Part shown: positions 4,090 through 54,429 of the stretch, piece by piece
Position numbering within the stretch: the first letter of the stretch is position 1
How the letters are laid out: the number at the start of each line of letters is the position of its first letter
From: Marinomonas rhizomae
GTDB lineage: Bacteria; Pseudomonadota; Gammaproteobacteria; Pseudomonadales; Marinomonadaceae
Assembly (NCBI RefSeq): GCF_003315485.1
Contig: NZ_QNSE01000002.1
Location: 62,001-126,000 of the forward strand
Length of the DNA stretch: 64,000 nucleotides
Reading direction: 5' to 3'
Program-made: the position numbers and the translations under genes
Notes under the pieces: generated by a model
Databases searched by the model: none
What the model saw: the letters and a program-made list of their open reading frames with translations, nothing else
What the model was told of the DNA's origin: nothing

Positions 4090-4139
4090 AATCCAAAAGC
4101 ATTGCACTAATTTTTATCTTGGATTTATGGAGCTTTACT

Positions 4140-9153: not shown

Positions 9154-9195
9154 GGTTTTCACTCACCTTTAATGGAGCCACTCATAGTTAGCTCA

Positions 9196-9335
9196 GTCAC
9201 CAGATCAACTCTCGCTCCGGCGCTAAAGCGCAAACATCCGCGAGATGTTGATCTTGTAACCGCTATATCAGAGTCAATTGCTCAAAAACATTTATGTGCA
9301 AATATCCGTGAGATATTGATCTGGTAGCATTTGCT
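9196..9335. repeat. Cluster of three related palindromic (REP-like) units
   Basis: Three copies of a GAGAnnTTGATCTnGT unit are packed here: one on the minus strand (about 9198-9215) and two on the plus strand (9242-9257 and 9310-9325). The two plus copies each form a small hairpin: AACATC/GATGTT (9233-9238 with 9244-9249) and AATATC/GATATT in the second. The second copy differs by a C-to-T in one arm and the matching G-to-A in the other, so pairing is preserved. Such intergenic palindromes are typical of REP/BIME-like repeats. Confidence 0.6.
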
Positions 9336-9364
9336 AAATGAACAATAGTGTCGACATGACATGT

Positions 9365-9600
9365 TCAAGCGATTAGGAAGCTGAGGATTGAGCCAATCTC
9401 GCAGGTGCGGCTGTTTGAATAAACCGCTTCGCAGCCTTCTACGGCTTTGGCTAGGGTTTTCAAGGCGCTGGCGTTGAGCTCTGGAGTCGAGAAGCCTTTG
9501 TCGCCAGCAAAGCCACAGCAGGTAATGTCTGGCGGAATCACCACTTCGTCAGCCAGTTGATGAGCAAGCTGCACGAAGCTGTCAGCCAGTCCCATGCGGG
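9365..9600 (-). pseudogene. Fragment of a FAD/Fe-S D-lactate dehydrogenase gene
   Basis: A 76-codon open frame matches the C-terminal part of the intact 969-residue dehydrogenase at 21904-24813. Nucleotides 9392-9600 align without gaps to 21973-22181 with 12 mismatches. The second cysteine-rich motif (ITCCGFAGDKGF) and SRTCEIG are retained, then the sequence diverges to SILSFLIA and stops. Of the ten differences inside the aligned codons, seven are synonymous, which suggests the copy diverged while still part of a functional gene. It is a remnant, not a functional product, and marks the left edge of the island. Confidence 0.9.
9392..9600. repeat. Left 209-bp direct repeat flanking the island
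   Basis: This segment is about 94% identical to 21973-22181, in the same orientation, 12,581 bp away. It derives from the 3' region of the D-lactate dehydrogenase gene. Confidence 0.92.
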
Positions 9601-9641
9601 TACTTCAGTTCAGCCATACTAAATTTCTACAAAGAACCAAT

Positions 9642-9683
9642 AAAAAAATTGGAAGTAGACAAACTAATTGGTTAGCTTGTCTA
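9642..9683 (-). terminator. Terminator of the leftward island operon
   Basis: A 12-bp stem with one mismatch (9656-9667 with 9672-9683, TTGG loop on the plus strand) lies 10 bp after the FAH-family stop codon. Reading the minus strand, a run of seven T (9648-9642) follows 7 nt later. The spacing is a little long but the fold is strong. Confidence 0.7.
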
Positions 9684-9692
9684 GTTATAAAG

Positions 9693-10541
9693 TTATTCTG
9701 CTGCAAGTGTAGTTTGCTGCTGAACGCCTAATCCCTCAATACCCAGCTTCATGGTTTGACCAGGTTTGAGGAATACTGGAGCTGGCTTAATGCCCATACC
9801 TACACCAGGAGGTGTGCCTGTCGAAATGATATCGCCAGCTTGTAAGCTCATACATTTACTCAAGTAGGAAATAATCTGAGGAATATTGAAAATAAGGGTA
9901 TTAGTGTTACCGTCCTGGTATTTCGTACCATCCACTTCAAGCCATAAATTTAAGTTGTGCGGATCTGTAATTTCATCACGAGTTACTAGCCAAGGGCCAA
10001 TCGGTCCAAAGGTATCAAAGCCTTTGCCTTTATCCCAGCTGCCCCCACGCTCAAGTTGCCATTCACGCTCAGAAACATCATTGATTATACAGTAACCAGC
10101 AACGTGGTTCATGGCATCTTCTTCTGATATATAGCGGCCACTTTTACCGATGACAACGCCTAACTCAACTTCCCAGTCAGTTTTTGTTGAGCCTTTAGGA
10201 ATCTCAACATTATCGTTTGGACCTACAATAGCGCTAGTCCATTTGTTAAATACGACTGGCTCTGAAGGAACGGGCATTCCTGCTTCAGCTGCGTGATCTG
10301 CGTAGTTAAGGCCAATACAAATAAATTTACCGACTTTGCCAACACATGGACCAATACGTTCACTTGCGTTTACAAGAGGCAATGAGGCTAATTCCACTTC
10401 TTTAATTTTTTGAATAGATTCGTCTGAAATATTGGCTCCATCAACATCGGTAATGATTGAAGAAAGATCGCGAATATTTCCTTCATTATCTAGGACGCCT
10501 GGTTTTTCAAAACCAGATTTACCATAACGTAGTAGTTTCAA
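9693..10541 (-). CDS. FAH-family hydrolase, likely 2,4-diketo-3-deoxy-aldonate hydrolase
   Basis: The 282-residue product is a fumarylacetoacetate-hydrolase-fold enzyme with the core ICIGLNYADHAAEAG, a metal-binding DWEVELGVVIGK, and the C-terminal GDIISTGTPPGVGMG. Length and motifs match the ureidoglycolate lyase/2,4-diketo-3-deoxy-L-fuconate hydrolase subgroup, which cleaves a beta-diketo acid into pyruvate and a hydroxy acid. It is the last gene of a minus-strand operon with an SDR and an aldehyde dehydrogenase. Pairing of SDR and FAH enzymes is the signature of the non-phosphorylative deoxy-sugar route. AGGAGT precedes the ATG. For a 6-deoxyhexonate the products would be pyruvate plus lactate; a pentonate would give glycolate. 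Confidence 0.85.
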   Translation of the reverse strand: MKLLRYGKSGFEKPGVLDNEGNIRDLSSIITDVDGANISDESIQKIKEVELASLPLVNASERIGPCVGKVGKFICIGLNYADHAAEAGMPVPSEPVVFNKWTSAIVGPNDNVEIPKGSTKTDWEVELGVVIGKSGRYISEEDAMNHVAGYCIINDVSEREWQLERGGSWDKGKGFDTFGPIGPWLVTRDEITDPHNLNLWLEVDGTKYQDGNTNTLIFNIPQIISYLSKCMSLQAGDIISTGTPPGVGMGIKPAPVFLKPGQTMKLGIEGLGVQQQTTLAAE

Positions 10542-10575
10542 AATGTACTCCTAATAATCTTGGAAGGAATGAGCG

Positions 10576-11310
10576 TTAAACGCTCATTCCTCCATCAATG
10601 ATTTGAACCGTGCCTGTAGTGTAAGATGAATCATCAGAGCCAAGGTAAACAGCTAATTTTGCTATCTCTTCAGCTGTACCTATACGTCCCATAGGTTGAC
10701 GGTCAATAAATTGTTGGAAAACGATGTCCTCAGAAGCGTTTTGCTGAATCGCTTGATCAGCTATTCGGTCACGTAATGAGGGTGAGTCAACTGTTCCAGG
10801 ACAGATTGCATTACAGCGAATGCCATTTTTTATGTAGTCCGCTGCAACAGCTTTGGTAAGACCGATGACAGCAGCTTTACTGGCAGTGTATGCAAGGCGG
10901 TTGGGAACTCCTTTAATACTTGAAGCCACCGAAGCCATATTGATAATTGAACCTTGACCACGCTCCAGCATCCCAGGGATAAATGCTTTTATGACTTGAT
11001 ACATAGATGTTACATTTAAATCAAAGGACTTGTTCCATGCGTCTAAATCACACTCCATAATGTTGCCTGCATGCACGTACCCAGCACAGTTGAAAATAAC
11101 ATCCACATTGCCAACATTTTTTTTCAAAGACTCTATATCTGATTCGGATGTGACATCTAAATAGTAAGCACGTACTCCTGGGAGGTCTTCTAATTGTTGA
11201 GTATTTATATCTGTTGCAATAACTTCAGCTCCGGCTTCCAAAAATGCTTTAACACTTGCTAAGCCTATGCCTTGGCCTGCCCCAGTAATTAAGACCTTTT
11301 TTCCATTCAT
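10576..11310 (-). CDS. SDR oxidoreductase, likely 2-keto-3-deoxy-aldonate 4-dehydrogenase
   Basis: The 244-residue protein is a classical short-chain dehydrogenase/reductase. It has the nucleotide-binding TGAGQGIGLASVKAFLEAGA, the NCAGY motif, the catalytic Ser (MASVASS), the YTASKAAVIG Tyr-x-x-x-Lys, and CPGTVDSPS. The dinucleotide specificity residue is Asp (ATDIN), favouring NAD. It resembles 2-keto-3-deoxy-L-fuconate dehydrogenases, and its placement 34 bp before the FAH-family hydrolase supports oxidation of a 2-keto-3-deoxy acid at C4. The ribosome site AGGAAAA precedes the ATG. Confidence 0.85.
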   Translation of the reverse strand: MNGKKVLITGAGQGIGLASVKAFLEAGAEVIATDINTQQLEDLPGVRAYYLDVTSESDIESLKKNVGNVDVIFNCAGYVHAGNIMECDLDAWNKSFDLNVTSMYQVIKAFIPGMLERGQGSIINMASVASSIKGVPNRLAYTASKAAVIGLTKAVAADYIKNGIRCNAICPGTVDSPSLRDRIADQAIQQNASEDIVFQQFIDRQPMGRIGTAEEIAKLAVYLGSDDSSYTTGTVQIIDGGMSV

Positions 11311-11326
11311 TATTATTTTCCTATGG

Positions 11327-12913
11327 TTAAAGATTTATTGAGTCTTTGGTGAAAGATCCATTAATCAATCGATTGATTCTTAGTGGATTAGAATTTTTTA
11401 TAGCATCTGGCAATAAGTGGTCAGGATAGTTTTGGAAGCAAACAGGGCGGAGGAAACGTTCTATGGCCAACGTTCCTACAGAGGTTCCGCGAGAATCTGA
11501 TGTAGCTGGGTAGGGGCCGCCGTGAACCATCGAGTCACATACCTCTACTCCTGTTGGGTAGCCATTGATTAGAACTCGGCCGGCCTTATGTTGAAGAAGT
11601 GATAAAATATCACTAGATGCTGCCATTTCGTCTTCTTCGCTGATTAGAGTTGCGGTCAGTTGACCTCTCATAGCTGATAAACACTTAATCAATTCATTGC
11701 GATCTTGAGCTTCAATTAAAACCGTAGCTGGTCCAAACACCTCTTCTTGTAAAAGCTCGTCACTATCGAGTAGAAGCTTTGAAGAGGCTTTAAAAAGGTA
11801 GGGAGTTGCTTGACCTTCATGACTTTGGCCTCGTGAAAGTACCTCTATGCCATGATATTTTTCTAAGGTTTCAATTCCACTTACATAACTTGAAAGTGTG
11901 CCTTTATTAAGCATTACTGAGCTTGCTTTGTTAGAAATCTCAGTCGATAAATCATCAATAAAACTTGAAAAACTTTCTGATTTGATAGCAATCACTAAGC
12001 CTGGATTAGTACAAAACTGTCCTGTACCAAGTACAACAGAGTCCGCTAATTCCTTGGCAATGAGCTTACCTCTATTTTTAATGGCACCTTCATTAAGAAT
12101 GACAGGGTTGATGCTACTCATTTCAGCAAAAACAGGGATTGGTTCTGCACGCTCTGAGGCCATTTTACAAATTGCGTTACCGCCTGAAAGGGACCCTGTA
12201 AAGCCGACAGCTTTTATGTGAGGGTTTTGAACCAAGGCTTTGCCAACCCCTGAGCCAAAAATCATATTAAATACACCTGATGGCATATCCGTTTTTTGTG
12301 CGGCATTAATGATCGCTTCCGCAACTATTTCAGCAGTCTTCATATGTCCACTATGCGCTTTGAATACCACTGGGCATCCAGCCGCTAGGGCTGCTGCTGT
12401 ATCGCCACCAGCGGTGGAAAATGCAAGTGGGAAGTTGCTTGCACCAAACACCGCTACTGGACCAATACCAATTTGATATTGTCTGATATCAACTTTTGGG
12501 GCAGGCTGTCGTGACGGATCACCGGTATCTATTCTTGCGCCATAGAAATCACCACGTGAAAGTAGTTCAGCAAAAAGTCTTAATTGATTCGAAGTACGGG
12601 ATTTCTCACCGTTAATTCGAGGATATGGGAGGGCAGTTTCTTGATGCACTATTTCAACAAAATCGTCACCCAGTGCATCAAGTTCATCAGCAATACAATT
12701 TAAAAATTTTGCTCTTTTAGAAGAACTGAAGTTACAAAATTCAAAAAAGGCTTCATTTGCGGAGGCACAGGCAGCCTCAACCTCAGCCTGAGTTGCTTGA
12801 AAAAATGTTGTGTTTAGCGGCTCGCCACTAAACGCGCTATAGCTATTAATAACCGTATTCCCATCGGAGCTACGGCTACCATTGATAAAGTTTTTTCCAT
12901 GTTCTTTAGACAT
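11327..12913 (-). CDS. 2-Ketoglutarate semialdehyde dehydrogenase (NADP-type aldehyde dehydrogenase)
   Basis: The 528-residue enzyme belongs to the aldehyde dehydrogenase superfamily, KGSADH subgroup. It shows GPVAVFGASNFPLAFSTAGG, the glycine-rich GFTGSLSGG, the catalytic Cys in GTGQFCTNPG and the C-terminal GVEVCDSMVHGGPYPA typical of this subgroup. It converts 2-ketoglutarate semialdehyde to 2-ketoglutarate, the last step of Weimberg-type pentonate pathways. It heads the minus-strand operon (gap of 16 bp to the SDR). A clear paralogue lies at 55513-57027 in the hydroxyproline cluster. Its promoter region contains LysR-type palindromes. Confidence 0.9.
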   Translation of the reverse strand: MSKEHGKNFINGSRSSDGNTVINSYSAFSGEPLNTTFFQATQAEVEAACASANEAFFEFCNFSSSKRAKFLNCIADELDALGDDFVEIVHQETALPYPRINGEKSRTSNQLRLFAELLSRGDFYGARIDTGDPSRQPAPKVDIRQYQIGIGPVAVFGASNFPLAFSTAGGDTAAALAAGCPVVFKAHSGHMKTAEIVAEAIINAAQKTDMPSGVFNMIFGSGVGKALVQNPHIKAVGFTGSLSGGNAICKMASERAEPIPVFAEMSSINPVILNEGAIKNRGKLIAKELADSVVLGTGQFCTNPGLVIAIKSESFSSFIDDLSTEISNKASSVMLNKGTLSSYVSGIETLEKYHGIEVLSRGQSHEGQATPYLFKASSKLLLDSDELLQEEVFGPATVLIEAQDRNELIKCLSAMRGQLTATLISEEDEMAASSDILSLLQHKAGRVLINGYPTGVEVCDSMVHGGPYPATSDSRGTSVGTLAIERFLRPVCFQNYPDHLLPDAIKNSNPLRINRLINGSFTKDSINL

Positions 12914-12967
12914 AAATTTCCCGTACTATTTTATTGTTTTGGGTAATTTATGTTGCCTTTTGATTAC

Positions 12968-13009
12968 TTACCAATGGTTAAATTTGATTGACTGATAACC
13001 ACTGGTTAT
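12968..13009. promoter_or_regulatory. LysR operator sites upstream of the leftward island operon
   Basis: ATAACCACTGGTTAT (12995-13009) is a near-perfect palindrome matching ATAACCATTAGTTAT at 13974-13988 on the other side of the LysR gene. A third related copy, TTACCAATGGTTAA, lies at 12968-12981. The right-hand site overlaps the LysR stop codon. The shared core is TAACCAnTgGTTA. These are the best candidates for sites through which the LysR protein controls the 12913-9693 operon. Confidence 0.7.
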
Positions 13010-13956
13010 TGAATAAGGTCTTTTGTGTCAGAAGCATTTCGTTGCAGAATGTCCATGAACTCCCGTGTTGCTCCGACTAAGTCTTCTCCTTTCCTTGTTA
13101 AAATACCGTAGTATTGCGGGATTAGTTCAAGCGGCGTTTGTAAAACACTCAAAGCCCCACTTTTCAAATGAGAGTCAACCATTACAGTAGGCAGCATGCC
13201 AATCATGGGGCCACGCTGAAGTAACTCTAAGAAAGTCTGTACCGAAATAGTTACAACAGTGTTTTTTGGCAAAGACACGCCAGCGTTATGAAAGGATTCT
13301 TCCATCCTAGTCCTAATGGGCGTCCCCTCTGGATATAACAACCAAGGCCAATCAAATAAATCCTCTAAAGATATCGACGCCTTTTTGCTAAGAGGATGAG
13401 TTGAATTCACAACAAGGCAAAAATTTTCGGGGGCTAAAGGAGTGTAATCAAAGTTAGGTTGTTGGTTTTGTTCAGAGAATCGACCTATTGCCAAATCAAG
13501 CGTCCTATCCTCCAACATCTTTATAAGGTTACCGCTTGTCTGTTCGACTACCTCTACATTTAAAAGAGGGTATCGCTGCTTAATCTCTAGAATTGCCTCA
13601 GGTAATGCTGCAGATGTGGCGGCAAAAATCCCTCCTACTTTTAAGTAGCCATATCCTCCATCTCGTAAACTAATTATCTGATCAACAAAACCTTCAGAAT
13701 CGTTAAGCATTTTGTTTGCAAAGTGTATTAGATGTTTACCAAGGTCTGTTGGCGGCATACTACGAGCATGTCTTTCAAAGATTTCAAACCCAACCAACGC
13801 CTCAATTTCTTTAAGCATTTTACTGACAGCAGGTTGACTGAGGTTCATCTGCTGAGCTGTTAAGTGCATATTTTTGGTGTTTCCTAATGAGCTCAAAAGT
13901 ACTAAGTGCTTAAATTTTACCCAGTTGCAAAAGCTGGCGAATGAGAATACAGACAT
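13006..13956 (-). CDS. LysR-family regulator of the sugar-acid island
   Basis: The 316-residue protein has an N-terminal LysR HTH (HLVLLSSLGNTKNMHLTAQQMNLSQPAVSKMLKEIEALVG) preceded by about 15 extra residues, and a full effector-binding domain (GYLKVGGIFAATSAALPEAILEIKQRYPLLNVEVVEQ). It resembles GbpR/CbbR-like regulators of sugar or aromatic acid catabolism. AAGGAG lies 6 nt before the ATG. The gene sits between the two divergent operons and is flanked by copies of the same palindrome, so it very likely controls both. The inducer is probably the imported sugar acid or a 2-keto-3-deoxy intermediate. Confidence 0.9.
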   Translation of the reverse strand: MSVFSFASFCNWVKFKHLVLLSSLGNTKNMHLTAQQMNLSQPAVSKMLKEIEALVGFEIFERHARSMPPTDLGKHLIHFANKMLNDSEGFVDQIISLRDGGYGYLKVGGIFAATSAALPEAILEIKQRYPLLNVEVVEQTSGNLIKMLEDRTLDLAIGRFSEQNQQPNFDYTPLAPENFCLVVNSTHPLSKKASISLEDLFDWPWLLYPEGTPIRTRMEESFHNAGVSLPKNTVVTISVQTFLELLQRGPMIGMLPTVMVDSHLKSGALSVLQTPLELIPQYYGILTRKGEDLVGATREFMDILQRNASDTKDLIQ

Positions 13957-13972
13957 GATTACTCCTTGATGC

Positions 13973-13989
13973 GATAACCATTAGTTATC
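13973..13989. promoter_or_regulatory. LysR operator between the regulator and the rightward island operon
   Basis: GATAACCATTAGTTATC is a palindrome with 6-bp arms around a 5-bp centre. It matches the site at 12995-13009. It lies 17-33 bp upstream of the LysR start and about 80 bp upstream of the 14069 gene, consistent with autoregulation and activation. Confidence 0.7.
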
Positions 13990-14068
13990 ACATATCTACT
14001 ATTTGTCATTGGATTTTATCACTAAGTCGCTCTAATTTAATTCCAAAATAATAAAGGAAGTAAATGAA

Positions 14069-15250
14069 ATGTCTTTGATTCTAACGATTGAAAATACAAT
14101 GCCTGCTGATTACGAACAGGCCTGCTTAGTTGGGCGTGCGTGGGTTCCTGGTAACCCATCTGGTCCATCCCCAATCGCAGTAGTAGACAATGAAATATTC
14201 GACATTTCAGAGAGCTACCCCACATTAAGTGAGCTCCTTGAGTTAGATAGTCCTGCACAAGCTGTGAAGGGTATACAAGGAAAGTACCTCTGTAGCCTAT
14301 CTCAGCTGTTGGAAAATACAGATGTATCACCAAACACGTCATCTCCACACCTTTTAGCGCCTCTAGATTTGCAGGTGATCAAAGCTGCAGGCGTTACATT
14401 TGCTTCAAGTATGATTGAGCGAGTTATTGAAGAGCAGGCTGGGGGTGACCCAGCTAGAGCAGAAGCTATTAGAAAACAAGTGGTTGAGGTGGTTGGAAAC
14501 AATCTTAAATCGATCGAGCCAGGTTCATCGAAAGCGAGTGATCTTAAAAAATTATTGATTGAAAAAGGAATGTGGTCGCAATACCTAGAGGTTGGTATCG
14601 GTCCTGATGCTGAGATTTTCACTAAAGCCCCTGTGCTTTCTGCGGTGGGAAGTGGTAGTTTTATCGGCGTCCATCCTCAGTCCGAATGGAACAACCCAGA
14701 ACCTGAGGTGGTTCTAGCTGTTAACAGCAAAGGACAGATACAGGGGGCAACACTAGGGAATGATGTCAACTTGAGAGACTTTGAGGGAAGAAGTGCACTG
14801 CTTCTTAGTAAAGCAAAGGACAATAATGCATCTTGTGCGATTGGTCCTTTCCTTAGATTGTTTGATGAAAGCTTTTCCTTAACTGATGTCGCTGATGCCG
14901 AAATCGCACTAGAGGTAAAGGGTGCAGATGGTTTCCTGATGTCTGGTTTATCATCAATGAATCAAATTAGTCGTACACCTCAAGATCTAGCTAGTCAGAC
15001 TCTAAATAAAAACCATCAATATCCAGACGGCTTTTATTTGTTTCTGGGGACGCTTTTCTCTCCTACACAGGACCGACACGAACCCGGTAGCGGTTTTACC
15101 CATCAATTAAATGATCTTGTTTCAATCCGTAATCCTAAATTAGGAGCTTTAAACAATATTACTTCTCACAGCAACAATGTTCAGCCATGGACATTTGGTA
15201 TCAACGCTCTGCTTACTAATCTGTCAGATAGAGGTTTGTTAAAGAAATAG
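14069..15250 (+). CDS. XylX/AraD1-type FAH-fold 2-keto-3-deoxypentonate dehydratase
   Basis: The 393-residue product is a long FAH-fold protein like Caulobacter XylX and the AraD1-type dehydratases. Visible features are the N-terminal domain, the LDLQVIKAAGVTFASSMIERVI segment, the metal-ligand region NPEPEVVLAVNSKG, and the C-terminal DRHEPGSGFTHQLNDLVSI. Family members turn 2-keto-3-deoxy-pentonates (from D-xylonate or L-arabinonate) into 2-ketoglutarate semialdehyde. This fits the dehydratase next door and the KGSADH in the divergent operon. GGAAG lies upstream of the ATG; a nearby ATG at 14064 is out of frame. Which pentonate is used cannot be told. Confidence 0.85.
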   Translation: MSLILTIENTMPADYEQACLVGRAWVPGNPSGPSPIAVVDNEIFDISESYPTLSELLELDSPAQAVKGIQGKYLCSLSQLLENTDVSPNTSSPHLLAPLDLQVIKAAGVTFASSMIERVIEEQAGGDPARAEAIRKQVVEVVGNNLKSIEPGSSKASDLKKLLIEKGMWSQYLEVGIGPDAEIFTKAPVLSAVGSGSFIGVHPQSEWNNPEPEVVLAVNSKGQIQGATLGNDVNLRDFEGRSALLLSKAKDNNASCAIGPFLRLFDESFSLTDVADAEIALEVKGADGFLMSGLSSMNQISRTPQDLASQTLNKNHQYPDGFYLFLGTLFSPTQDRHEPGSGFTHQLNDLVSIRNPKLGALNNITSHSNNVQPWTFGINALLTNLSDRGLLKK

Positions 15251-15292
15251 TATCTAAAGCATTTAATTTATAAGAATAACAGGAAGTAAAAA

Positions 15293-17077
15293 ATGCAGAA
15301 TAATAAAAACCTCAAACTAAGAAGTCAGCAATGGTTTGATGATCCAGAACACGCAGATATGACTGCTTTGTATGTTGAGCGCTACATGAATCAAGGCTTG
15401 ACTAGAGAGGAGCTACAATCAGGCAAGCCAATCATAGGCATCGCCCAAACCGGAAGCGACTTGACGCCATGTAATCGACATCACATTCAACTCGCTCAGA
15501 GGATTAAAGACGGCATTAGGGATGCTGGTGGGATTCCCATGGAATTTCCGGTACACCCAATTGCAGAGCAAAGTCGTAGGCCTACTGCCGCACTTGACCG
15601 AAACCTAGCGTACCTTGGGTTGGTAGAGGTGTTGCACGGTTATCCTTTAGATGGAGTTGTCTTGACTACTGGCTGTGACAAGACAACGCCAGCCTGCCTG
15701 ATGGCTGCAGCAACAACTGATTTGCCATCAATTGTGCTATCAGGTGGCCCAATGCTAGACGGTTATCATGATGGTGAGCTGATTGGTTCCGGCACGGTCA
15801 TTTGGAGCTCTCGTAAGCTACTTGCCAAAGGTAAGATAGATTATGAAGGCTTCATGGAATTGACAACTGCGGCGTCACCTTCTGTGGGTCACTGTAATAC
15901 GATGGGAACTGCCCTCTCGATGAACGCCATTGCAGAAGCTTTAGGTATGTCGTTACCGGGCTGTGCAAGTATCCCTGCACCTTATCGAGAACGTGGTCAA
16001 ATGGCATACGCTACAGGTCGTCGTATCTGCGAGATGGTTTTGCAAGATATAAAACCTTCTAGCATCATGACAAAAGAATCATTTCATAATGCTATTGCTG
16101 TTGCATCAGCCCTCGGCGCTTCGTCAAATTGTCCACCACATTTAATCGCTATTGCCCGACATATGGGTATCGATTTATCTCTAGATGACTGGCAAGAATT
16201 TGGTGAGCATATACCTCTTATTGTTAACTGTATGCCGGCTGGTAAACATCTCGGAGAAGGATTCCATAGGGCAGGTGGCGTCCCGTCTGTTTTGCATGAG
16301 CTTCAAAAAGCAAACTATCTAAATAATGATTGCTTAACAGTAAGTGGTAAGACTCTTGGAGAAATAGCTACCACAAGTGAAACGAATAATCGTGATGTAA
16401 TTTATAGTTATGAAAAGCCATTAAAGCATAAATCTGGCTTCATTGTTTTGAGTGGTAACTTCTTCGAAAGTGCGATTATAAAAATGTCAGTTGTTGGTGA
16501 TGCTTTTAAGAAAACTTACCTTTCTGATCCTGGGTCTGAAAATAGTTTTGAAGCGCGTGCAATCGTGTTTGAAGGACCAGAAGACTATCATGCTCGAATT
16601 AATGATCCTTCTTTAGATATAGATGAGCGTTGTATTCTTGTTGTTCGAGGTGCGGGTACTGTTGGTTATCCAGGAAGTGCTGAAGTTGTAAACATGGACC
16701 CACCTACAGAGCTGATGAAGAAAGGTGTTTCTTCATTGCCTTGTCTTGGTGATGGTCGTCAAAGTGGTACATCTGCAAGCCCTTCAATTCTCAATATGTC
16801 GCCTGAAGCTGCTGTTGGGGGAGGTATCGCTTTATTGAAAACGAATGACATACTGAAAGTTAATCTTAATGATCGGTCAATTGATCTTTTAATTTCCGAT
16901 GAAGAAATGCAAACGCGCAGAGAAGAGTGGAAGCCTTCCATTCCAGCCTCTCAAACTCCTTGGCAGGAGATATACAGAAGCCTTGTTGGACAACTTTCGA
17001 CTGGTGGTTGCCTTGAGCCCGCCACATTACACCTAAAAGTTATCTCTAAAGACAAACCTCCTCGTCACTCGCATTAG
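15293..17077 (+). CDS. IlvD/Edd-family aldonate dehydratase (xylonate/arabinonate/fuconate type)
   Basis: The 594-residue enzyme has the three Cys positions expected for the iron-sulfur cluster of sugar-acid dehydratases: GIAQTGSDLTPCNRHH, VLTTGCDKTTPACLMAA and SVGHCNTMGTALSMN. The C-terminal GDGRQSGTSASPSILNMSPE is the conserved active-site loop. Its length matches Caulobacter XylD and L-arabinonate dehydratases rather than IlvD (about 615 residues, different N-terminus) or Edd. It removes water from an aldonate to give a 2-keto-3-deoxy acid, the common entry step for both downstream branches. It is 42 bp after the XylX-like gene and followed by the TRAP genes. Confidence 0.88.
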   Translation: MQNNKNLKLRSQQWFDDPEHADMTALYVERYMNQGLTREELQSGKPIIGIAQTGSDLTPCNRHHIQLAQRIKDGIRDAGGIPMEFPVHPIAEQSRRPTAALDRNLAYLGLVEVLHGYPLDGVVLTTGCDKTTPACLMAAATTDLPSIVLSGGPMLDGYHDGELIGSGTVIWSSRKLLAKGKIDYEGFMELTTAASPSVGHCNTMGTALSMNAIAEALGMSLPGCASIPAPYRERGQMAYATGRRICEMVLQDIKPSSIMTKESFHNAIAVASALGASSNCPPHLIAIARHMGIDLSLDDWQEFGEHIPLIVNCMPAGKHLGEGFHRAGGVPSVLHELQKANYLNNDCLTVSGKTLGEIATTSETNNRDVIYSYEKPLKHKSGFIVLSGNFFESAIIKMSVVGDAFKKTYLSDPGSENSFEARAIVFEGPEDYHARINDPSLDIDERCILVVRGAGTVGYPGSAEVVNMDPPTELMKKGVSSLPCLGDGRQSGTSASPSILNMSPEAAVGGGIALLKTNDILKVNLNDRSIDLLISDEEMQTRREEWKPSIPASQTPWQEIYRSLVGQLSTGGCLEPATLHLKVISKDKPPRHSH

Positions 17078-17109
17078 CGAATGGCTAGTCTCAGCCGATA
17101 AAAATTAAA

Positions 17110-17649
17110 ATGGTGGACGGAATGGAAAAAATAACAAAGATATTTGAAAAAACTATTGAATATCTAATGGCATTATCCCTAGCTGTAATGTTTTTAGCAG
17201 TATTTGTTAATGTTCTCCTAAGGTATCTTTTTAGCTCTGGTTTTGCTGAATCAGAAGAGTTATCAAGACTTTTGTTTGTCTGGCTTATTTTTCTTGGGGC
17301 TACTTTAGCTGTAGGAAAAAATGCACACATAGGGTTTGATTTAGTTCAATCTAAGCTACCTGAAACCTTAAGAAGTATATGTTTTTTCTTTTCAAGAATG
17401 CTAATGCTATATGGCCTGTATCTTTTTCTTTTAGGTAGCTGGAGTCAGTACCAAATAGGCTGGAATATTACATCCACAGTTATTAAATATCCTTTAGCGT
17501 ATATGTATGCGACGGGGTTGTTTGCCTCTGTAGGTATGGGCTTTTATTTGTTAAGAGATCTGGTGCAAGAGCTAAATGCTATTCGAACCAGGTTAGCGCC
17601 GAATAAATATAATCAAGCATCAAAAGAATGTAAGGGGAGCAATCTATGA
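17110..17649 (+). CDS. TRAP transporter small permease (DctQ type)
   Basis: The 179-residue protein has four hydrophobic helices and the DctQ pattern (NVLLRYLF, SEELSRLLFVWLIFLGATLAV). It is the small membrane subunit that pairs with DctM. ATG 17110 and an in-frame ATG at 17122 are both possible; a weak purine stretch precedes the second. The gene is unusually AT-rich. Its stop overlaps the start of the next gene (ATGA), so translation is probably coupled. Confidence 0.88.
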   Translation: MVDGMEKITKIFEKTIEYLMALSLAVMFLAVFVNVLLRYLFSSGFAESEELSRLLFVWLIFLGATLAVGKNAHIGFDLVQSKLPETLRSICFFFSRMLMLYGLYLFLLGSWSQYQIGWNITSTVIKYPLAYMYATGLFASVGMGFYLLRDLVQELNAIRTRLAPNKYNQASKECKGSNL

Positions 17650-18923
17650 CTCTTGGTTTATTTTTAGTTAGTCTTTCTGGTTTGATGGTTTTAGGTCTTC
17701 CTATTGCATTCGCATTGATACTAACAGGTGTGATTTTAATGTGGCATCTTGACTTTTTCGATGCTCAATTAATAGCCCAAAATTTAATCAATGGTGCGGA
17801 TAGCTTTCCTTTAATGGCGGTACCATTCTTCATTTTAGCTGGCGAAGTAATGAATGCTGGAGGCATTTCAAAACGCATTATCAATTTGGCGATAAGCTGT
17901 GTTGGGCACAGACGAGGGGGATTAGGGTATGTTGCAATTATAGCTGCCGTTATCCTAGCGAGCTTATCAGGGTCTGCAATTGCAGATACCGCAGCACTAG
18001 CAACTTTGCTACTGCCAATGATGCGAAATAACGGATATCCAGTTGGTCGATCTGCGGGACTAATTGCAGCAGGTGGCATCATTGCTCCCATCATACCGCC
18101 AAGTATGCCTTTTATTATCTTTGGTGTTACAGCCAACCAATCAATTAGCAAGTTATTTATGGCTGGCGTTGTTCCTGGAATTATTATGGGGCTAGGGTTG
18201 GTTCTTGCTTGGAAATGGAGCATGCGTACTGTAGATGTTGAGCCGCAACCAAGACAAGATATGAAGACAAGGTTGAAAGTAGCTAAGGACGGTTTCTACG
18301 CGCTTTTGATGCCTGTGATTATCATCGGTGGTCTTCGAGGTGGCATGTTTACACCGACTGAAGCGGCAGTAGTCGCTGCAGGTTACGCAATGTTTGTAAG
18401 CCTTGTTGTCTACAGAGAAATTAAAATTAAGGATTTAGTCCCTCTATTTGTTCAGGCAGCGTATACAACTAGCATTGTTATGTTCCTTTGTGCAGCGGCT
18501 ATTGTTTCTTCTTATATGGTTACGCTAGCTGATTTGCCCTCAGAACTTATTAAATTCTTAGCTCCAATTATGGATGAACCGAAACTTTTGATGGCGACTA
18601 TTGTTGTCGTGATGTTAATGATCGGAATGGTAATGGATTTAACACCAACCATTTTAATATTAGCGCCTGTTACGATGCCTTTAGTTGTTCAAGCTGGAAT
18701 TGATCCAATTTACTTTGGTGTAATGTTTATTATGGTTGGCTGTGTTGGTCTGATAACACCTCCTGTCGGCACTGTATTAAGCGTTGTGTCTAGTGTTGCA
18801 AGTGAACCACTTGAAAAAATCACAAAAGGGATACTTCCATTTTTGTTTGTTTACATGCTGGTGATTGTTCTATTTGTTTTGTTCCCCGAGATAATTACTG
18901 TTCCTGCTAATTTTCTCTATTAA
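17646..18923 (+). CDS. TRAP transporter large permease (DctM type)
   Basis: The 425-residue protein has about twelve hydrophobic segments and DctM signatures such as FPLMAVPFFILAGEVMNAGGI, GSAIADTAALATLLLPMM, IAPIIPPSMPFIIFG and the C-terminal VGLITPPVGTVLSVV. It is the sodium-coupled channel subunit of a tripartite ATP-independent periplasmic transporter. AGGGGAG precedes the ATG, and the start overlaps the DctQ stop by 4 nt. With the neighbouring genes it should import the sugar acid degraded by the island. Confidence 0.93.
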   Translation: MTLGLFLVSLSGLMVLGLPIAFALILTGVILMWHLDFFDAQLIAQNLINGADSFPLMAVPFFILAGEVMNAGGISKRIINLAISCVGHRRGGLGYVAIIAAVILASLSGSAIADTAALATLLLPMMRNNGYPVGRSAGLIAAGGIIAPIIPPSMPFIIFGVTANQSISKLFMAGVVPGIIMGLGLVLAWKWSMRTVDVEPQPRQDMKTRLKVAKDGFYALLMPVIIIGGLRGGMFTPTEAAVVAAGYAMFVSLVVYREIKIKDLVPLFVQAAYTTSIVMFLCAAAIVSSYMVTLADLPSELIKFLAPIMDEPKLLMATIVVVMLMIGMVMDLTPTILILAPVTMPLVVQAGIDPIYFGVMFIMVGCVGLITPPVGTVLSVVSSVASEPLEKITKGILPFLFVYMLVIVLFVLFPEIITVPANFLY

Positions 18924-18947
18924 TAAACTGAAGAAAGGAAACTTAAG

Positions 18948-20000
18948 ATGTATAAGAATAAAAACGTCAAATCAGTTCTATCTAAATCAAAAATTGCAAA
19001 GTCTTTAATCGCATTGTCGGTTGGTGGAGCATTAACCGTATGCTCGGTTGCTGCCAGTGCACAAGATGTAAGCAATCGCTTTATTCGATTTGGCTATGGT
19101 TTAAACCAAGACAGTAAGCAAGGTCGTGCTGTTGAGGTTTTCAAGGAAGAAGTTAGTAGGCTTTCTGAGGGTAAGCTTAAAGTTAAACCTTTCGCAAATG
19201 CCTTACTGGGTAATGAAAACCAAATGCAAAATGCCTTAATAGGTGGAGCCCAAGAGATGATGATGACTGCTAGTTCTTCATTAATTGGTATTGATAAGAA
19301 GTTTGCTGTTTGGGATCTACCTTTTATGTTTGATGACGGACCTCATGCAGACAGAGTATTAGATGGGGAGTTTGGGCAAGGACTGCTGGATGGATTAGAG
19401 CCACATGGTTTAGTGGGCCTAGTGTATTGGGAAAATGGTTTTCGAGATCTAACAAACTCAAAACGTCCGGTTCATAAAATGGAAGATCTGGACGGTGTTA
19501 AGCTTCGTGTAATGCAAAACCCAATGTTCCTAGATCTATTTAATGACATGGGAGCAAATGCAGTTCCAATGGCCTTCTCAGAATTGTTTACTGCTCTTGA
19601 AACTGGCGCGGTAGACGGTCAGGAGAACCCTTACAGTACGATTCAGTCCAGTAAGTTTTATGAAGTTCAAAGCTATTTGAGTCAGACGCATCACGTTTAT
19701 AGCCCATGGGTAATGCTGGTTAGCAAACGTTTCTGGGATAAATTGAGTGATGATGAAAAGGAAATTATCACGAAAGCAGCTATCAAGTCTCGTGACTTTG
19801 AACGTCAAGATAGTCGTGCACAGGCTCAAAAATCACTTGAATTCCTCAAAACTAAAATGGCTGTGAACAGTATCGCTCCTGAAGAAATGGAGCGAATGAA
19901 AGAGGCTGCTAAGAAGGTGATAGACGCTCAAGCCGATGAAATTGGTGAAGATGTACTAAACAACTTCCTTCAGGCTGTAAAAAACGCTAAGAGTAATTAA
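18948..20000 (+). CDS. TRAP transporter periplasmic solute-binding protein (DctP type)
   Basis: The 350-residue protein begins with a long signal peptide (basic residues, hydrophobic stretch to about residue 39, cleavage likely after ASA). The mature part has DctP-family features: IRFGYGLNQDSKQGRAVEVFKEEV, LPFMF, LRVMQNPMFLDLFNDMGANAVPM and the ligand-contact region ELFTALETGAVDGQENP. It captures the substrate in the periplasm for the DctQM permease. A strong terminator follows. Confidence 0.92.
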   Translation: MYKNKNVKSVLSKSKIAKSLIALSVGGALTVCSVAASAQDVSNRFIRFGYGLNQDSKQGRAVEVFKEEVSRLSEGKLKVKPFANALLGNENQMQNALIGGAQEMMMTASSSLIGIDKKFAVWDLPFMFDDGPHADRVLDGEFGQGLLDGLEPHGLVGLVYWENGFRDLTNSKRPVHKMEDLDGVKLRVMQNPMFLDLFNDMGANAVPMAFSELFTALETGAVDGQENPYSTIQSSKFYEVQSYLSQTHHVYSPWVMLVSKRFWDKLSDDEKEIITKAAIKSRDFERQDSRAQAQKSLEFLKTKMAVNSIAPEEMERMKEAAKKVIDAQADEIGEDVLNNFLQAVKNAKSN

Positions 20001-20004
20001 AGTT

Positions 20005-20039
20005 AAGCCGGCAAGGCGCGTGTCTTGCCGGCTTTCTTA
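20005..20039 (+). terminator. Terminator after the TRAP solute-binding gene
   Basis: AAGCCGGCAAG (20005-20015) and CTTGCCGGCTT (20024-20034) form a perfect 11-bp stem with an 8-nt loop, followed by a T-rich stretch. It probably attenuates transcription between the TRAP genes and the D-lactate dehydrogenase gene. Confidence 0.9.
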
Positions 20040-20059
20040 TATTAAAAGTAGGTCTAGTA

Positions 20060-21760
20060 ATGAAAGTCAGCCCTTCAAATCCAGAGCAGTTTCTGAAAGA
20101 AATAGGCTCGATAGTCAGTAAACAAAACTTCATAACAGATAAAGCTAAAACAGCCAGTTACTTCAAAGGTTTTCGATTTGGTGGCGGAGATGCTAAAGCT
20201 GTTGTTATACCAAAAACTCTCCTAGAACTGTGGCGCGTAGTTCAAGTATGTGTTGATCATGATGTGATCATGGTTATGCAAGCGGCCAACACCGGATTAA
20301 CAGGCGGATCAACGCCTTATGGTCAGTATGATCGTGATGTTGTTCTTATTAGTACAGTCAAGCTAAAAGGCATCCAACTACTAGACGAAGGTAAGCAAGT
20401 TTTGGCTTTTCCTGGTAGCTGCCTTTTTGAATTAGAAGAAGAATTAAAGCCATATAACAGAGAACCTCATTCAGTAATTGGCTCTTCATGCATTGGTGCT
20501 TCTATTATTGGTGGGGTATGTAATAACTCTGGTGGTGCTTTAGTACAGCGGGGTCCAGCCTATACGGAAATGGCCTTGTATGCTCGTGTCGATGAAAATC
20601 AAAAATTAACCTTGGTAAACCACCTAGGTATTAACTTAGGCTCTGAGCCAGAAAGGGTTCTATCGGCATTAGAGAACAAAGAGTACACAAAAGCAGATAT
20701 TAAATATCCAGATCGATCTGCCAGCGACAATGGTTATCAGCAGAAAGTAAGAGAGATTGATGCTGACACTCCGTCGCGCTTTAACAATGATGGGCGTCTT
20801 TTATACGAAGCGTCAGGTTGTGCGGGAAAACTGATTGTTTTCGCCGTTAGACTAGACACTTTCCCAAAGTCAAAGAAAGATAAGGTGTTCTATATCGGTA
20901 CAAATGATACGGAAACGCTTACTGGGATTCGTAGAGAGGTTCTTGGCAATTTTGAGCATCTACCGATATCAGGCGAATACATACACAGAGATTATTTTGA
21001 TGTGTCCGATAAGTACGGAAAAGACTCATTCTTAGTAATCGAAAAGCTAGGTAGTGAAATGATGCCTAAGCTCTTTAAACTAAAGAACACAATTGACTCT
21101 TTCTTATCGAAGTTCTCTTTCTTACCGAAAAACATACCTGATAAGTTATTGCAGCAATCCGGGAAACTCTTTCCAGATCATCTGCCCAAGAAAATGAGGG
21201 AGTTTCGTGATAAATACGAACATCATCTAATGTTGCACATGTCGGACGATGGCGTTGACGAAGCGCACAAGTTTCTTGAACGTTTTTTTGAAGGTTCGGA
21301 GGGTGGCTACTTTATTTGTTCAGAAAGTGAGGGCAAAAAAGCATTCTTGAATCGATTCGTAGCAGGAGGGGCTGCTAAAAGGTTCCACACCTTACACCCT
21401 GATTGTGGTGCAATTATGGCTCTAGACATCGCTCTGAAGAGAAATGAAACTGACTGGTTTGAAAAGCTGCCTCCAGAATTGGATGAACTCGTTGAAGCTA
21501 AGCTATACAACGGACATTTTATGTGTCATGTAATGCATCAAGACTATATCCTCAAGACCGGAGTTGATGAAAACGAGTTCAAAAATAAAATCCTATCATT
21601 TTTTGATGCCAAAGGCGCTGAGTACCCTGCCGAACATAACGTTGGTCAGCTGTACACAGCGAAATCGGAATTAAGAGAGTTTTACAGACAAAATGACCCG
21701 ACCAATAGCCTTAACCCTGGCATCGGAAAAACGTCAAAGAATAAGCATTGGTGCCATTAA
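20060..21760 (+). CDS. dld: Quinone-dependent D-lactate dehydrogenase (E. coli Dld type)
   Basis: The 566-residue product matches E. coli Dld in length and layout. A FAD-binding domain (about residues 35-260; MVMQAANTGLTGGSTPYG, IGGVCNNSGGALVQRGPAY) is followed by the membrane-associated D-lactate dehydrogenase domain (about 275-560; HLMLHMSDDG, FHTLHPDCGAIMALDIALKRN, YPAEHNVGQLY). It is a peripheral membrane flavoenzyme passing electrons from D-lactate to quinone. Inside a cluster that contains SDR and FAH enzymes it suggests that D-lactate is a pathway product, as expected from a 6-deoxy-aldonate with D configuration at C5. It is independent of the FAD/Fe-S dehydrogenase encoded on the other strand next door. 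Confidence 0.92.
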   Translation: MKVSPSNPEQFLKEIGSIVSKQNFITDKAKTASYFKGFRFGGGDAKAVVIPKTLLELWRVVQVCVDHDVIMVMQAANTGLTGGSTPYGQYDRDVVLISTVKLKGIQLLDEGKQVLAFPGSCLFELEEELKPYNREPHSVIGSSCIGASIIGGVCNNSGGALVQRGPAYTEMALYARVDENQKLTLVNHLGINLGSEPERVLSALENKEYTKADIKYPDRSASDNGYQQKVREIDADTPSRFNNDGRLLYEASGCAGKLIVFAVRLDTFPKSKKDKVFYIGTNDTETLTGIRREVLGNFEHLPISGEYIHRDYFDVSDKYGKDSFLVIEKLGSEMMPKLFKLKNTIDSFLSKFSFLPKNIPDKLLQQSGKLFPDHLPKKMREFRDKYEHHLMLHMSDDGVDEAHKFLERFFEGSEGGYFICSESEGKKAFLNRFVAGGAAKRFHTLHPDCGAIMALDIALKRNETDWFEKLPPELDELVEAKLYNGHFMCHVMHQDYILKTGVDENEFKNKILSFFDAKGAEYPAEHNVGQLYTAKSELREFYRQNDPTNSLNPGIGKTSKNKHWCH

Positions 21761-21903
21761 AGTCTTGGAAGCTTCAGAACGTACAATTGAAATTAAGCAC
21801 AACACATTATTTGTAGACACCCAACAAAACTTATCACTTGAGCCCTTTTTACTAAAAATAATTTTTTACAGCACAGTTATAAAATAATATGGCGATTAAA
21901 TGA

Positions 21904-24813
21904 CTAGGACTCAGACAATTGATCCACCAAATAGACAATGGATTGATACTCGATGCCGCTGTGTTCCGATAAGCCAATCTCACAGGTGCGGCTGTTGGAG
22001 TAACCCACTTCGCAGCCTTCTACGGCTTTGGCTAAGGTTTTCAAGGCGCTGGCGTTGAGCTCTGGAGTCGAAAAGCCTTTGTCGCCAGCAAAGCCACAGC
22101 AGGTAATGTCTGGCGGAATCACCACTTCATCAGCCAGTTGATGAGCAAGCTGCACGAAGCCGTCAGCCAGCCCCATTCGCGTGGTGCTGCAAGTCACATG
22201 CAGGGCGATTTTGCTGATTTTTTCCTTAACCGTGAGATTTTGCATGACATGGGTCGATACAAAGCCAACTTGCTCGTGCAGTTCTAAACAAGGATCAAGG
22301 CTTTCTTGCATTCGTAGCAAGCAAGGGCTCACATCGCAGACGATAGGGATTCGGCCATTATCGCTAGCAGCTAACAGTAAACTATTGAGATCGCTGGATT
22401 TTTGGTTCGCCGCATCAAATTGCCCCTTGGATTGAAACGCCATACCACAGCATTGGCTGTCGACATTATCAGGTACAGTGACTTTATAGCCTGCTTTTTG
22501 CAATACAGAGAACATCACAGCCATCACCGAACGTTTATCCTCTGCATTCGGCCCTGCGCCCATGACGCGAGTCGCGCAGCTAGGGAAGTAAATGACTTCT
22601 TTCTGCCTGTCATCCGCTTGCATCCCATTACTTTGAATATCATTACATTGAATAACAGGAATAGACTTCAAAGACGCGGCGGAGCTGGGCATTTGTTTAT
22701 GCCATTTAGGTACAGCTCCTTGGGAAACTTTGTTCATTACCGAGGTGACAGCGGTCATGCCTGAATCACCAACAATACGACGAGCACCGCTGGCAAGGCT
22801 AAGTCCCACTTTTGCCGTTTTGGTCACGCCTTCAAAATGATCTGCAATCCAATAACCAACTTTACTGTCAGTGTGGCGATCGTGGCGTAATTCGCGAGTT
22901 AAATCGCCCGTATTAATGCCAACGGGACATTGCATCGAACACAAACCACAGCCAGCGCAGGTATCAACACCTTGATAATTATAGTCTTTTTTCAGTTCTG
23001 CAAGACGTTCAGGCTCCTCGCCTGAGGCAAGCAGTCGTTGTATCTCTCGCCAAATCACAATACGTTGGCGAGGTGTTAAAGTAATGGATTTTGACGGACA
23101 AGACGATTCACAAAAACCACATTCGATACAGGTGTCGACTTTGTCATTGGCTTTGGGTAAAGGTTTGAGGTTCTGTACATGCAAATTGGCGTTGTGAGAT
23201 AAAATCACATCTGGATTCAGCAAGCCTTGCGGGTCAAAGGCGCGCTTAATTTCCCACATGATGTTATAGGCTTCTTTACCCCATTCTAATTCCACATACG
23301 GTGCCATATTACGGCCTGTACCATGTTCCGCTTTTAACGAACCTTGGTATTTCACCGCGACTAATTGCGCGACTTCGTCCATCAATTGCTCGTATCGTTT
23401 CACTTCGTACGGGTCATCAAAACCTTGGGTAAAGACAAAGTGCAAATTGCCTTCTAAGGCATGACCAAACAAAATCGCTTCGCGATATCCATGCTTTTGA
23501 AACACACCTTGTAGCTCCAAAACACCTTCGGCAAGCTGTTCGACAGGGAAAGCCACGTCTTCAATGATTACCGTGGTGCCAACTGGGCGTACCGCACCAA
23601 CGGCAGGAAACAAGCCTTTGCGAATCTTCCAATAGGAGTCGTAAATAACTTTGTTTTGTGTAAATTCGATTGGATTGAGTGTTGCTTGACCGCTTAACGC
23701 TTGCTGCACCAAGTCCAAATTCACAGCTAACTCTTCAGCATCGGCAGCGCGTACGTCAACTAATAAACCCGCAGCTTGCGGGCCAAGAGACGACAAGATT
23801 TCTGGCATGCCCGGTTTGCCTTCCACTGCTCGTAGGCCCGCGCGATCAATCAATTCGACAGCAGACACAGGTGAGCTTTTTAGCGCGGTTACCGCTCGAC
23901 AAGTGACCTCCATATCGTCAAAGAAGATCATCGCTGCCGCTTTTATTGGATGATCAATCACGGTGTCGTAAGTTACTTCGCTGATAAAGCCCAAAGTGCC
24001 TTCTGAGCCAATCATCAAATGTAGCAAAATATCAAACGGATCTTGGTAATCAGTTAAGCTGTTTAAACTGTATCCTGTGGTGTTTTTTAAACGATATTTG
24101 TGTCTGATTCTTTCGGCTAACTCGCTATTGCCTTGCACGCTTTTAGATAATCGAACAAGCGTATCAAGCAAGTCAGCATGACGCTTGCCAAAGGCGAGTC
24201 GGCTGGCTTCGTCTGCGGTATCTAACAAAGAGCCATCGGCAAAAATCAGACGCGCACTTTGAATCGTGTGGTAACTGTTTTGCGCTGTACCACAACACAT
24301 GCCGCTGGCGTTATTGGCCGCAATACCGCCAATCATACAGGCATTAATAGACGCAGGATCTGGACCGATTTTACGTTGAAACGGCGCCAGTAGTTGATTC
24401 GCTCGCGCTCCGATAATACCTGGTTGCAATGAGATACTATGACCATGGTCATGCATTCGGTGGCCTTTCCAGTTATCGGACAATTGTATCAGGATTGAAT
24501 CGGTTACCGCTTGCCCAGATAAACTCGTACCCGCCGCACGAAATGTCACTGGCAAGTTGCGTTTTCGGGCTTCCTCCAACACCAACTGCACTTCCTCTTC
24601 ACTATCAACTCTCACGACTAGTTGCGGAACCAGCCGATAAAAGCTTGCATCTGTACCGTACGCCAAGGTACGAAGAGGGTCTCGGATCAACCGACTCTCA
24701 TCAATCGCACTATTCTTTGCATCTTTCAAGGCAAAGTATAAATCGCGGTATTGAGCCATTTTATAAGCAAGTGAGTCGGTAGCAGTTGAGGCAGTATTCA
24801 TCAGAAGTCCCAC
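21904..24813 (-). CDS. FAD/Fe-S D-lactate dehydrogenase (Dld-II-like, GlcD-GlpC fusion)
   Basis: The 969-residue protein fuses a FAD-binding oxidase to an iron-sulfur and CCG module. The FAD domain shows LPVTFRAAGTSLSGQAVTD and GGIAANNASGMCCG, then an FAD-oxidase C domain (YRVEAILFGHALEGNLHF region; KAEHGTGRNMAPYVE). Two 4Fe-4S motifs follow near residues 565 and 618 (CIECGFCESSCPS, CAGCGLCSMQCPVG). Two cysteine-rich CCG segments (CCGMAF near 790, CCGFAGDKGF near 906) complete it. Similar proteins in Shewanella act as respiratory D-lactate dehydrogenase. It is divergent from a GntR regulator with an LldR-type operator between them, which supports lactate. Its 3' region is the source of the direct repeat at 9392-9600. 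Confidence 0.88.
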   Translation of the reverse strand: MGLLMNTASTATDSLAYKMAQYRDLYFALKDAKNSAIDESRLIRDPLRTLAYGTDASFYRLVPQLVVRVDSEEEVQLVLEEARKRNLPVTFRAAGTSLSGQAVTDSILIQLSDNWKGHRMHDHGHSISLQPGIIGARANQLLAPFQRKIGPDPASINACMIGGIAANNASGMCCGTAQNSYHTIQSARLIFADGSLLDTADEASRLAFGKRHADLLDTLVRLSKSVQGNSELAERIRHKYRLKNTTGYSLNSLTDYQDPFDILLHLMIGSEGTLGFISEVTYDTVIDHPIKAAAMIFFDDMEVTCRAVTALKSSPVSAVELIDRAGLRAVEGKPGMPEILSSLGPQAAGLLVDVRAADAEELAVNLDLVQQALSGQATLNPIEFTQNKVIYDSYWKIRKGLFPAVGAVRPVGTTVIIEDVAFPVEQLAEGVLELQGVFQKHGYREAILFGHALEGNLHFVFTQGFDDPYEVKRYEQLMDEVAQLVAVKYQGSLKAEHGTGRNMAPYVELEWGKEAYNIMWEIKRAFDPQGLLNPDVILSHNANLHVQNLKPLPKANDKVDTCIECGFCESSCPSKSITLTPRQRIVIWREIQRLLASGEEPERLAELKKDYNYQGVDTCAGCGLCSMQCPVGINTGDLTRELRHDRHTDSKVGYWIADHFEGVTKTAKVGLSLASGARRIVGDSGMTAVTSVMNKVSQGAVPKWHKQMPSSAASLKSIPVIQCNDIQSNGMQADDRQKEVIYFPSCATRVMGAGPNAEDKRSVMAVMFSVLQKAGYKVTVPDNVDSQCCGMAFQSKGQFDAANQKSSDLNSLLLAASDNGRIPIVCDVSPCLLRMQESLDPCLELHEQVGFVSTHVMQNLTVKEKISKIALHVTCSTTRMGLADGFVQLAHQLADEVVIPPDITCCGFAGDKGFSTPELNASALKTLAKAVEGCEVGYSNSRTCEIGLSEHSGIEYQSIVYLVDQLSES
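21973..22181. repeat. Right 209-bp direct repeat (inside the intact dehydrogenase gene)
   Basis: This is the functional copy of the sequence duplicated at 9392-9600, lying within the last quarter of the dehydrogenase gene. It defines the right edge of the island at sequence level. Confidence 0.92.
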
Positions 24814-24971: not shown

Positions 24972-24988
24972 AATTGGTTTTACCACTT
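24972..24988. promoter_or_regulatory. Second, weaker LldR-type site
   Basis: AATTGGTTTTACCACTT matches the upstream palindrome except in the centre and near one end. It lies 108 bp from the first site and 60 bp upstream of the regulator start, so looping between two sites, as described for E. coli LldR, is possible. Confidence 0.6.
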
Positions 24989-25048
24989 TTAGACTTATGC
25001 ACAGAAGACAAGAAAACCTCTTTTAAGAATACATTTTTAGGAAAATTC

Positions 25049-52075: not shown

Positions 52076-52093
52076 AACGAGCAAGGAGTCACT

Positions 52094-53347: not shown

Positions 53348-53368
53348 CATCAGAGGACATCCAAGCCT

Positions 53369-54394: not shown

Positions 54395-54429
54395 CTTCTA
54401 CGGGAATAACTAAACATAATGGAGAAAGT

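Follow-up and report, generated by a model that had tools for sequence, protein, structure and literature searches.

A ten-gene sugar-acid cassette between a dehydrogenase gene and its remnant in Marinomonas rhizomae, probably gained by partly homologous recombination

The window analysed here is a 64,000-nucleotide stretch of a Marinomonas rhizomae draft genome (assembly GCF_003315485.1, contig NZ_QNSE01000002.1, positions 62,001 to 126,000 of the forward strand; 4.42 Mb in 34 contigs, estimated contamination 0.03%). It holds a ten-gene cassette, four genes on the minus strand and six on the plus strand, lying between two direct copies of the 3' part of one minus-strand dehydrogenase gene (Table 1). 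The copies form a 211-bp block with 199 identical positions, 12,581 bp apart from start to start, and their longest common exact run is 56 bp. The left copy is a dead fragment and the right copy lies within an open gene, as an initial annotation had recognized; its figure of 197 identities in 209 bp is exact over the span it covered, whereas its count of ten codon differences, seven of them synonymous, has to be corrected to 12, nine synonymous and three nonsynonymous. A search of the whole genome with positions 9200-9800 matched the two repeat places only, and no other direct-repeat family of at least 30 bp was found between 8000 and 24000.

Table 1. Features of the cassette and its borders, in window coordinates
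Feature	Position	Strand	Basis
TSUP (TauE/SafE family) gene, left neighbour	8347-9153	+	Pfam PF01925; neighbours the dehydrogenase in relatives too
Native TSUP-dehydrogenase intergenic DNA	9154-9372		Similarity to G001 and G038; alignment
Last codons and stop of broken dehydrogenase	9373-9390	-	Alignment; frame read by eye
211-bp dehydrogenase remnant (left repeat copy)	9391-9601	-	Repeat search; alignment
Left cassette edge	9602-9692		No useful similarity; chance-level 14-bp match among fetched loci
FAH-family hydrolase, like 2,4-didehydro-3-deoxy-L-rhamnonate hydrolase	9693-10541	-	Below NCBIfam cut-off
SDR dehydrogenase	10576-11310	-	Pfam, NCBIfam
Aldehyde dehydrogenase	11327-12913	-	PF00171; best NCBIfam alpha-ketoglutaric semialdehyde dehydrogenase, far below cut-off
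LysR-type regulator	13006-13956	-	Pfam
FAH-like protein	14069-15250	+	Weak Pfam match, below cut-off
IlvD/EDD-type sugar-acid dehydratase	15293-17077	+	PF00920/PF24877; NF009560 above cut-off
TRAP transporter DctQ subunit	17110-17649	+	PF04290
TRAP transporter DctM subunit	17646-18923	+	PF06808
TRAP transporter DctP subunit	18948-20000	+	PF03480; TIGR00787 above cut-off
Dld, membrane D-lactate dehydrogenase	20060-21760	+	NF008387 above cut-off; PF09330
Right cassette edge	21761-21903		Similarity to relatives starts at ~21901-21906 (search) or ~21890 (alignment, by eye)
Intact FAD/Fe-S dehydrogenase (right allele)	21904-24813	-	969 aa
Right repeat copy	21972-22182	-	Inside intact dehydrogenase gene
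GntR/FCD (FadR-type) regulator, right neighbour	24974-25825	+	PF07729/PF00392; order in relatives

The intact dehydrogenase carries FAD_binding_4, FAD-oxidase_C and Fe-S domains and a weak CCG match in Pfam. None of the 25 NCBIfam models shown reaches its cut-off, and the six solved structures that match it include glycolate oxidase, a lactate dehydrogenase subunit and D-2-hydroxyglutarate dehydrogenase. Its initial designation as a D-lactate dehydrogenase is plausible, not proven, and we refer to it simply as the dehydrogenase.

The left copy lies on DNA that belongs to this site. We compared it with a set of 48 Marinomonas genomes, one per species and including its own (numbered with G below). 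The sequence between the TSUP gene and the left copy matches the TSUP-dehydrogenase gap of G001 at 96% over 131 bp and that of G038 at 92% over about 180 bp. Past a net 59-bp deletion next to the 211-bp block, the broken gene retains its last codons and its stop, so that it reaches further than the repeat to which it had been limited before; positions 9367-9390 are identical to the G017 sequence at the end of the dehydrogenase gene. By eye, a palindrome that stands just past the gene in seven of ten aligned relatives is gone from the remnant. Because it sits on native TSUP intergenic DNA and keeps its last codons and stop, the left copy is, judging by its sequence, an in-place remnant of a once-functional dehydrogenase allele. 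Separately, inspection by eye of 9200-9340, between TSUP and the remnant, revealed two diverged copies of a short palindrome-like unit, which recurs in the same gap of some relatives.

In many members of the genus the TSUP gene and the dehydrogenase stand directly side by side, with a gap that differs in length from species to species. Of 36 stretches retrieved from around the dehydrogenase or the genes next to it, 24 have TSUP beside the dehydrogenase (in G036 beside its remnant). Thirteen of the 24 gaps measured span 72-421 bp; the other 11 span 853-2830 bp and have different genes inside. The FadR-type gene is next in order in 12 of the 13 short-gap stretches (not in G016), which bears out the expectation that relatives would show an uninterrupted arrangement. 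In ten of the remaining 12 stretches TSUP does not appear next to the gene, and the other two, G045 and G046, have lost the dehydrogenase. The cassette was seen in none of the 36, nor at this place in any other of the genus genomes, so that the refuting case of an island here without the left fragment did not turn up. Full-length copies of the dehydrogenase (E <= 1e-200) number one in 38 of the 48 genomes, none in ten and two in no genome. G036 keeps a dehydrogenase remnant of its own, covering residues 851-933 (L066 15066-15317), and the FadR gene was not found there.

The two copies differ in ways that bear on how long the left one has been dead. With G032 as the third sequence, the remnant has three private changes (one nonsynonymous) and the intact copy nine (two nonsynonymous). 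A remnant dead since the split would be expected to show about 29 changes, as estimated from the synonymous changes of the intact copy (Poisson P ~1e-9 for the three seen), or 11.7 with the lower 95% limit of the rate (P = 0.003). At nine of the 12 differing sites both states are present among 16 close species, at two the remnant's state is found in all 16 and at one the intact copy's state is. The remnant is closer to G032, from which it differs at seven positions, than to the intact copy, from which it differs at 12. Since the remnant has changed little for a sequence dead since the split, two once-functional alleles of different descent were probably brought together, one of which died recently; the initial annotation had likewise taken the fragment for the residue of a functional, slightly diverged allele.

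The tree of the 211-bp region was built from 18 of 35 sequences, the 16 close species and the two copies; the underlying dehydrogenase alignment omits three of the 36 stretches, G036 with its remnant only and G045 and G046 without the gene. All three topologies tested were retained. The best one pairs the intact copy with G031, and grouping of the remnant with G032 gave p = 0.359 in the approximately unbiased (AU) test.

Pfam and NCBIfam matches support the sugar-acid content attributed to the cassette from the outset. From these protein families and the routes described in an excerpt of PMC6336799, we infer that a sugar acid would be imported by the TRAP transporter and then dehydrated. Dehydrogenation and hydrolysis could follow, giving pyruvate and lactate, or further dehydration and oxidation, giving alpha-ketoglutarate. 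The presence of Dld suggests D-lactate as a product, which the enzyme would oxidise, and the deoxyhexose route in the same excerpt ends in pyruvate and lactate. As far as that excerpt describes it, the non-phosphorylative cluster of Herbaspirillum huttiense likewise brings together a dehydratase, an SDR, FAH-type proteins, a regulator and a transporter; unlike that cluster, the cassette has a TRAP instead of an ABC transporter and adds Dld.

The cassette differs from its surroundings in base composition and occurs elsewhere in the genus at other places. GC content at third codon positions (GC3) is 0.337 in the ten cassette genes and 0.424 in 39 other genes of the window (Mann-Whitney p = 6e-6), so the cassette does not share the composition of its flanks; the test left out two of 51 open reading frames (ORFs), one cut by the window edge and one of 151 aa at 1032-1487. 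The FAH-like protein is present in seven other genomes of the 48 searched. Around its gene, G039 has the whole cassette, G025 and G038 have all of it except Dld, G012 is without the first two genes, G023 has a shorter version, and G045 and G046 have parts of it. In none of the seven does it lie at the TSUP-dehydrogenase site: its contig differs from that of the dehydrogenase in G012, G023, G025 and G038, its distance from the dehydrogenase is about 745 kb in G039, and its contig differs from that of TSUP in G045 and G046, neither of which yielded a full dehydrogenase. Proteins of the window cassette are 60-90% identical to those of the other carriers, which are 70-100% identical among themselves; both ranges exclude the G023 aldehyde dehydrogenase (47%) and, in G045 and G046, TRAP-like proteins (33-39%), all of which seem to be different genes. 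The window copy is the most distant one in most cassette genes, and hardly so for Dld (69-72% vs 70-75%). In loci of Pseudomonas the order FAH, SDR, aldehyde dehydrogenase, LysR, FAH-like protein and dehydratase recurs in part. Of 90 rows of such loci, the 80 inspected, which include 70 of the 80 named loci, did not show the repeated dehydrogenase within the flanking DNA covered.

In G039, the last 284 bp of the cassette Dld gene occur in three identical copies (L109 4574-4857, L230 10069-10352 and L231 10031-10314). Two of these are without the rest of the gene and lie beside ORFs that look transposase-like by eye. The L231 copy adjoins a 699-aa gene resembling, again by eye, the gene that borders the cassette in G038 and G025.

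Both edges of the window cassette leave native sequence abruptly. The left edge at 9601/9602 and the right edge at about 21890-21903 each join unrelated sequences; the right copy resembles relatives only to about 15 bp past its stop codon, and the right edge matches only itself in its own genome. Because both edges join unrelated sequences, homology would account for one side of the cassette at most. PF00589 integrases have nine matches in the genome, none of them on this contig, other integrase families not having been searched. No tRNA was found in the window, and neither the ten proteins of the cassette nor the neighbours scanned include a transposase or an insertion sequence. The only flanking repeat of at least 30 bp is the 94% identical gene part itself, shorter attachment-site (att) repeats not having been sought.

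We consider it probable that the cassette was gained at the TSUP-dehydrogenase border by recombination between the DNA of two lineages with slightly different dehydrogenase alleles. One end of the incoming DNA would have paired with homologous DNA, on the dehydrogenase/FadR side or, in the mirror case, on the TSUP side, and crossed over, while the other end would have been joined to unrelated DNA, in the manner of homology-facilitated illegitimate recombination. The simplest account would take a single homologous crossover plus a single illegitimate join. The 3' end of one allele would thereby have been stranded as a dead remnant beside TSUP, with the other allele complete on the far side. The right allele may have arrived with the cassette, leaving the remnant as the resident, which is the course that the initial annotation had proposed; the mirror case, in which the TSUP side, the remnant and the cassette came in and the right allele was resident, fits as well. 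A variant would be single-crossover integration of a circle with a later deletion. The earlier observation is thus confirmed and its interpretation, mostly right, is supported in part: entry without an integrase agrees with the lack of PF00589 on the contig, and homologous recombination can be retained for one side at most. Deletion of the cassette through the repeats, also suggested there, is conceivable. It would not restore the ancestral dehydrogenase: because the remnant carries the 59-bp deletion, the predicted product has eight new C-terminal residues in place of the native last 22.

Several observations weigh against this account. Two illegitimate joins are present, so that one of them had to pre-exist in the donor or arise separately. 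We found no donor genome in which the cassette adjoins this dehydrogenase. Overall codon-usage divergence of the cassette is not significant (p = 0.15). With six other third sequences the remnant has three to seven private changes and the intact copy five to eight, so the contrast between them is weaker and depends on the sequence chosen. A sister relationship of the two copies is not rejected by the AU test (p = 0.151). When identity was followed along the intact gene in a sliding frame, similarity to G032 rose near the 3' end and no clean crossover point appeared.

The sister relationship that the AU test allows would also suit a tandem duplication of the dehydrogenase in this lineage, with the cassette inserted between the copies and the left one decaying. 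We regard this as unlikely, since two full copies occur in none of the 48 genomes and the remnant carries too few changes for a sequence that died at the split, so that under duplication both copies must have worked for a long time. Transfer by a transposon, an integrase or another mobile element since lost, with the remnant produced by a neighbouring deletion or a separate recombination, would agree with the different sites of the cassette in different species and with the two orphan Dld 3' pieces of G039 beside transposase-like ORFs. This is quite improbable in our view: the repeats, at 94% identity and within a gene, do not resemble a target-site duplication, and the contig lacks a PF00589 integrase, the cassette a transposase and the window a tRNA, although serine recombinases and transposases were not searched genome-wide.

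The few changes in the remnant could also mean that the stretch was kept because it functions itself, as an RNA or DNA element. Synonymous identity at the 3' end is 0.717 against a gene mean of 0.616 in 17 close sequences, where 27 of 900 windows are as high, and the remnant of G036 overlaps the same part of the gene. The effect all but disappears when the full set of 34 sequences is used (0.535 vs 0.511, 171 of 900 windows as high), no Rfam model matches the window at gathering scores, and the parts of G045 and G046 that were read contain no remnant. As a conserved element the remnant is a weak candidate, and we rate this explanation as very improbable. Wrong joining of two copies in assembly might be suspected in a draft of 34 contigs; with an exact run of no more than 56 bp between the copies, cassette junctions outside the shared block and so little estimated contamination, it is scarcely credible.

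Many transferred catabolic cassettes leave little trace of their entry route. Here a gene remnant on a native flank records the entry event and gives junctions that can be tested, which would make it a further case from nature in which a large cassette was acquired with no integrase in sight. The event is a well-preserved example of an already known type, and essentially an ordinary gene acquisition. In the portion of PMC3240628 available, homology-facilitated illegitimate recombination is described for three competent species and, at low frequency, for conjugating Escherichia coli. As in that process, genes were gained at a border, a displaced 3' end was left behind, one homologous side is plausible and a non-homologous join lies at the end of the acquired DNA; unlike it, the second edge is a non-homologous join as well. 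Module displacement that shifts a 3' end by such recombination has been proposed for type VI secretion system modules of Vibrio cholerae, according to an extract of PMC5361080; the present case differs from the one outlined there in that a 12-kb catabolic cassette lies between two alleles of a housekeeping-type gene. An integrase in or beside the island with a tRNA or identical att repeats, as in integrase-borne genomic islands and integrative and conjugative elements, was not seen here, nor were the insertion sequences or transposases at both ends that mark a composite transposon.

The long gaps in other species raise a wider and more tentative reading, which we hold to be possible yet rather doubtful: that throughout Marinomonas cargo of unrelated kinds (metabolic cassettes, candidate anti-phage KAP ATPases and others) docks at the TSUP-dehydrogenase border independently of integrases. 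It would be inserted or exchanged there through partly homologous recombination using TSUP and the 3' end of the dehydrogenase, and dehydrogenase 3' ends left stranded would be the record of these exchanges. Cargo at this border does vary, 11 of the 24 gaps being at least 853 bp long, as in a hotspot. KAP-type ATPase genes lie in the gaps of G017, G025, G031 and G036 (L058 13243-14793, L064 13266-14774, L054 5433-6962 and L066 13297-14823). Those of G017 and G025 were identified with Pfam and PADLOC, with the candidate defence family PDC-S20 as best PADLOC match, and those of G031 and G036 by alignment. Other gaps hold an ORF with a below-cut-off PD-(D/E)XK match (G006), MFS and AsnC-type genes (G029), DUF2867, DUF559 and a weak TetR match (G024) or DUF5924 (G021).

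Synonymous identity reaches 0.68-0.73 in TSUP and, for the dehydrogenase, 0.72 in its final tenth, with most other bins at 0.56-0.66; a gene farther off, at 4119, is also high (0.67-0.69, n=6). The integrase-poor insertion hotspots treated in a section of PMC5635113 similarly carry changing cargo between a pair of conserved genes and no integrase. Their flanking core genes recombine, and the somewhat raised synonymous identity on both sides of the gap may be a further likeness. Unlike the material presented in that section, ours comprises one genome per species, which makes the evidence weak. As a candidate variable site, the border could serve to compare the cargo of different marine bacteria.

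A recent swap of the KAP genes was considered; the proteins encoded there share 73-79% identity and resemble one another no more closely than do the TSUP proteins of the same genomes, so no such swap is shown. We also considered the region 50172-55449 as a guide to the nearest species. It fixed none, and it looks mosaic because G019, G029 and G017 match it at 88-89% and most others at about 66-76%. Finally, the tRNA-synthetase-like gene at 4119-5261, unlike its neighbours, is 93% identical in DNA to G001 and G032 and 80-82% identical to G025, G038 and G039.

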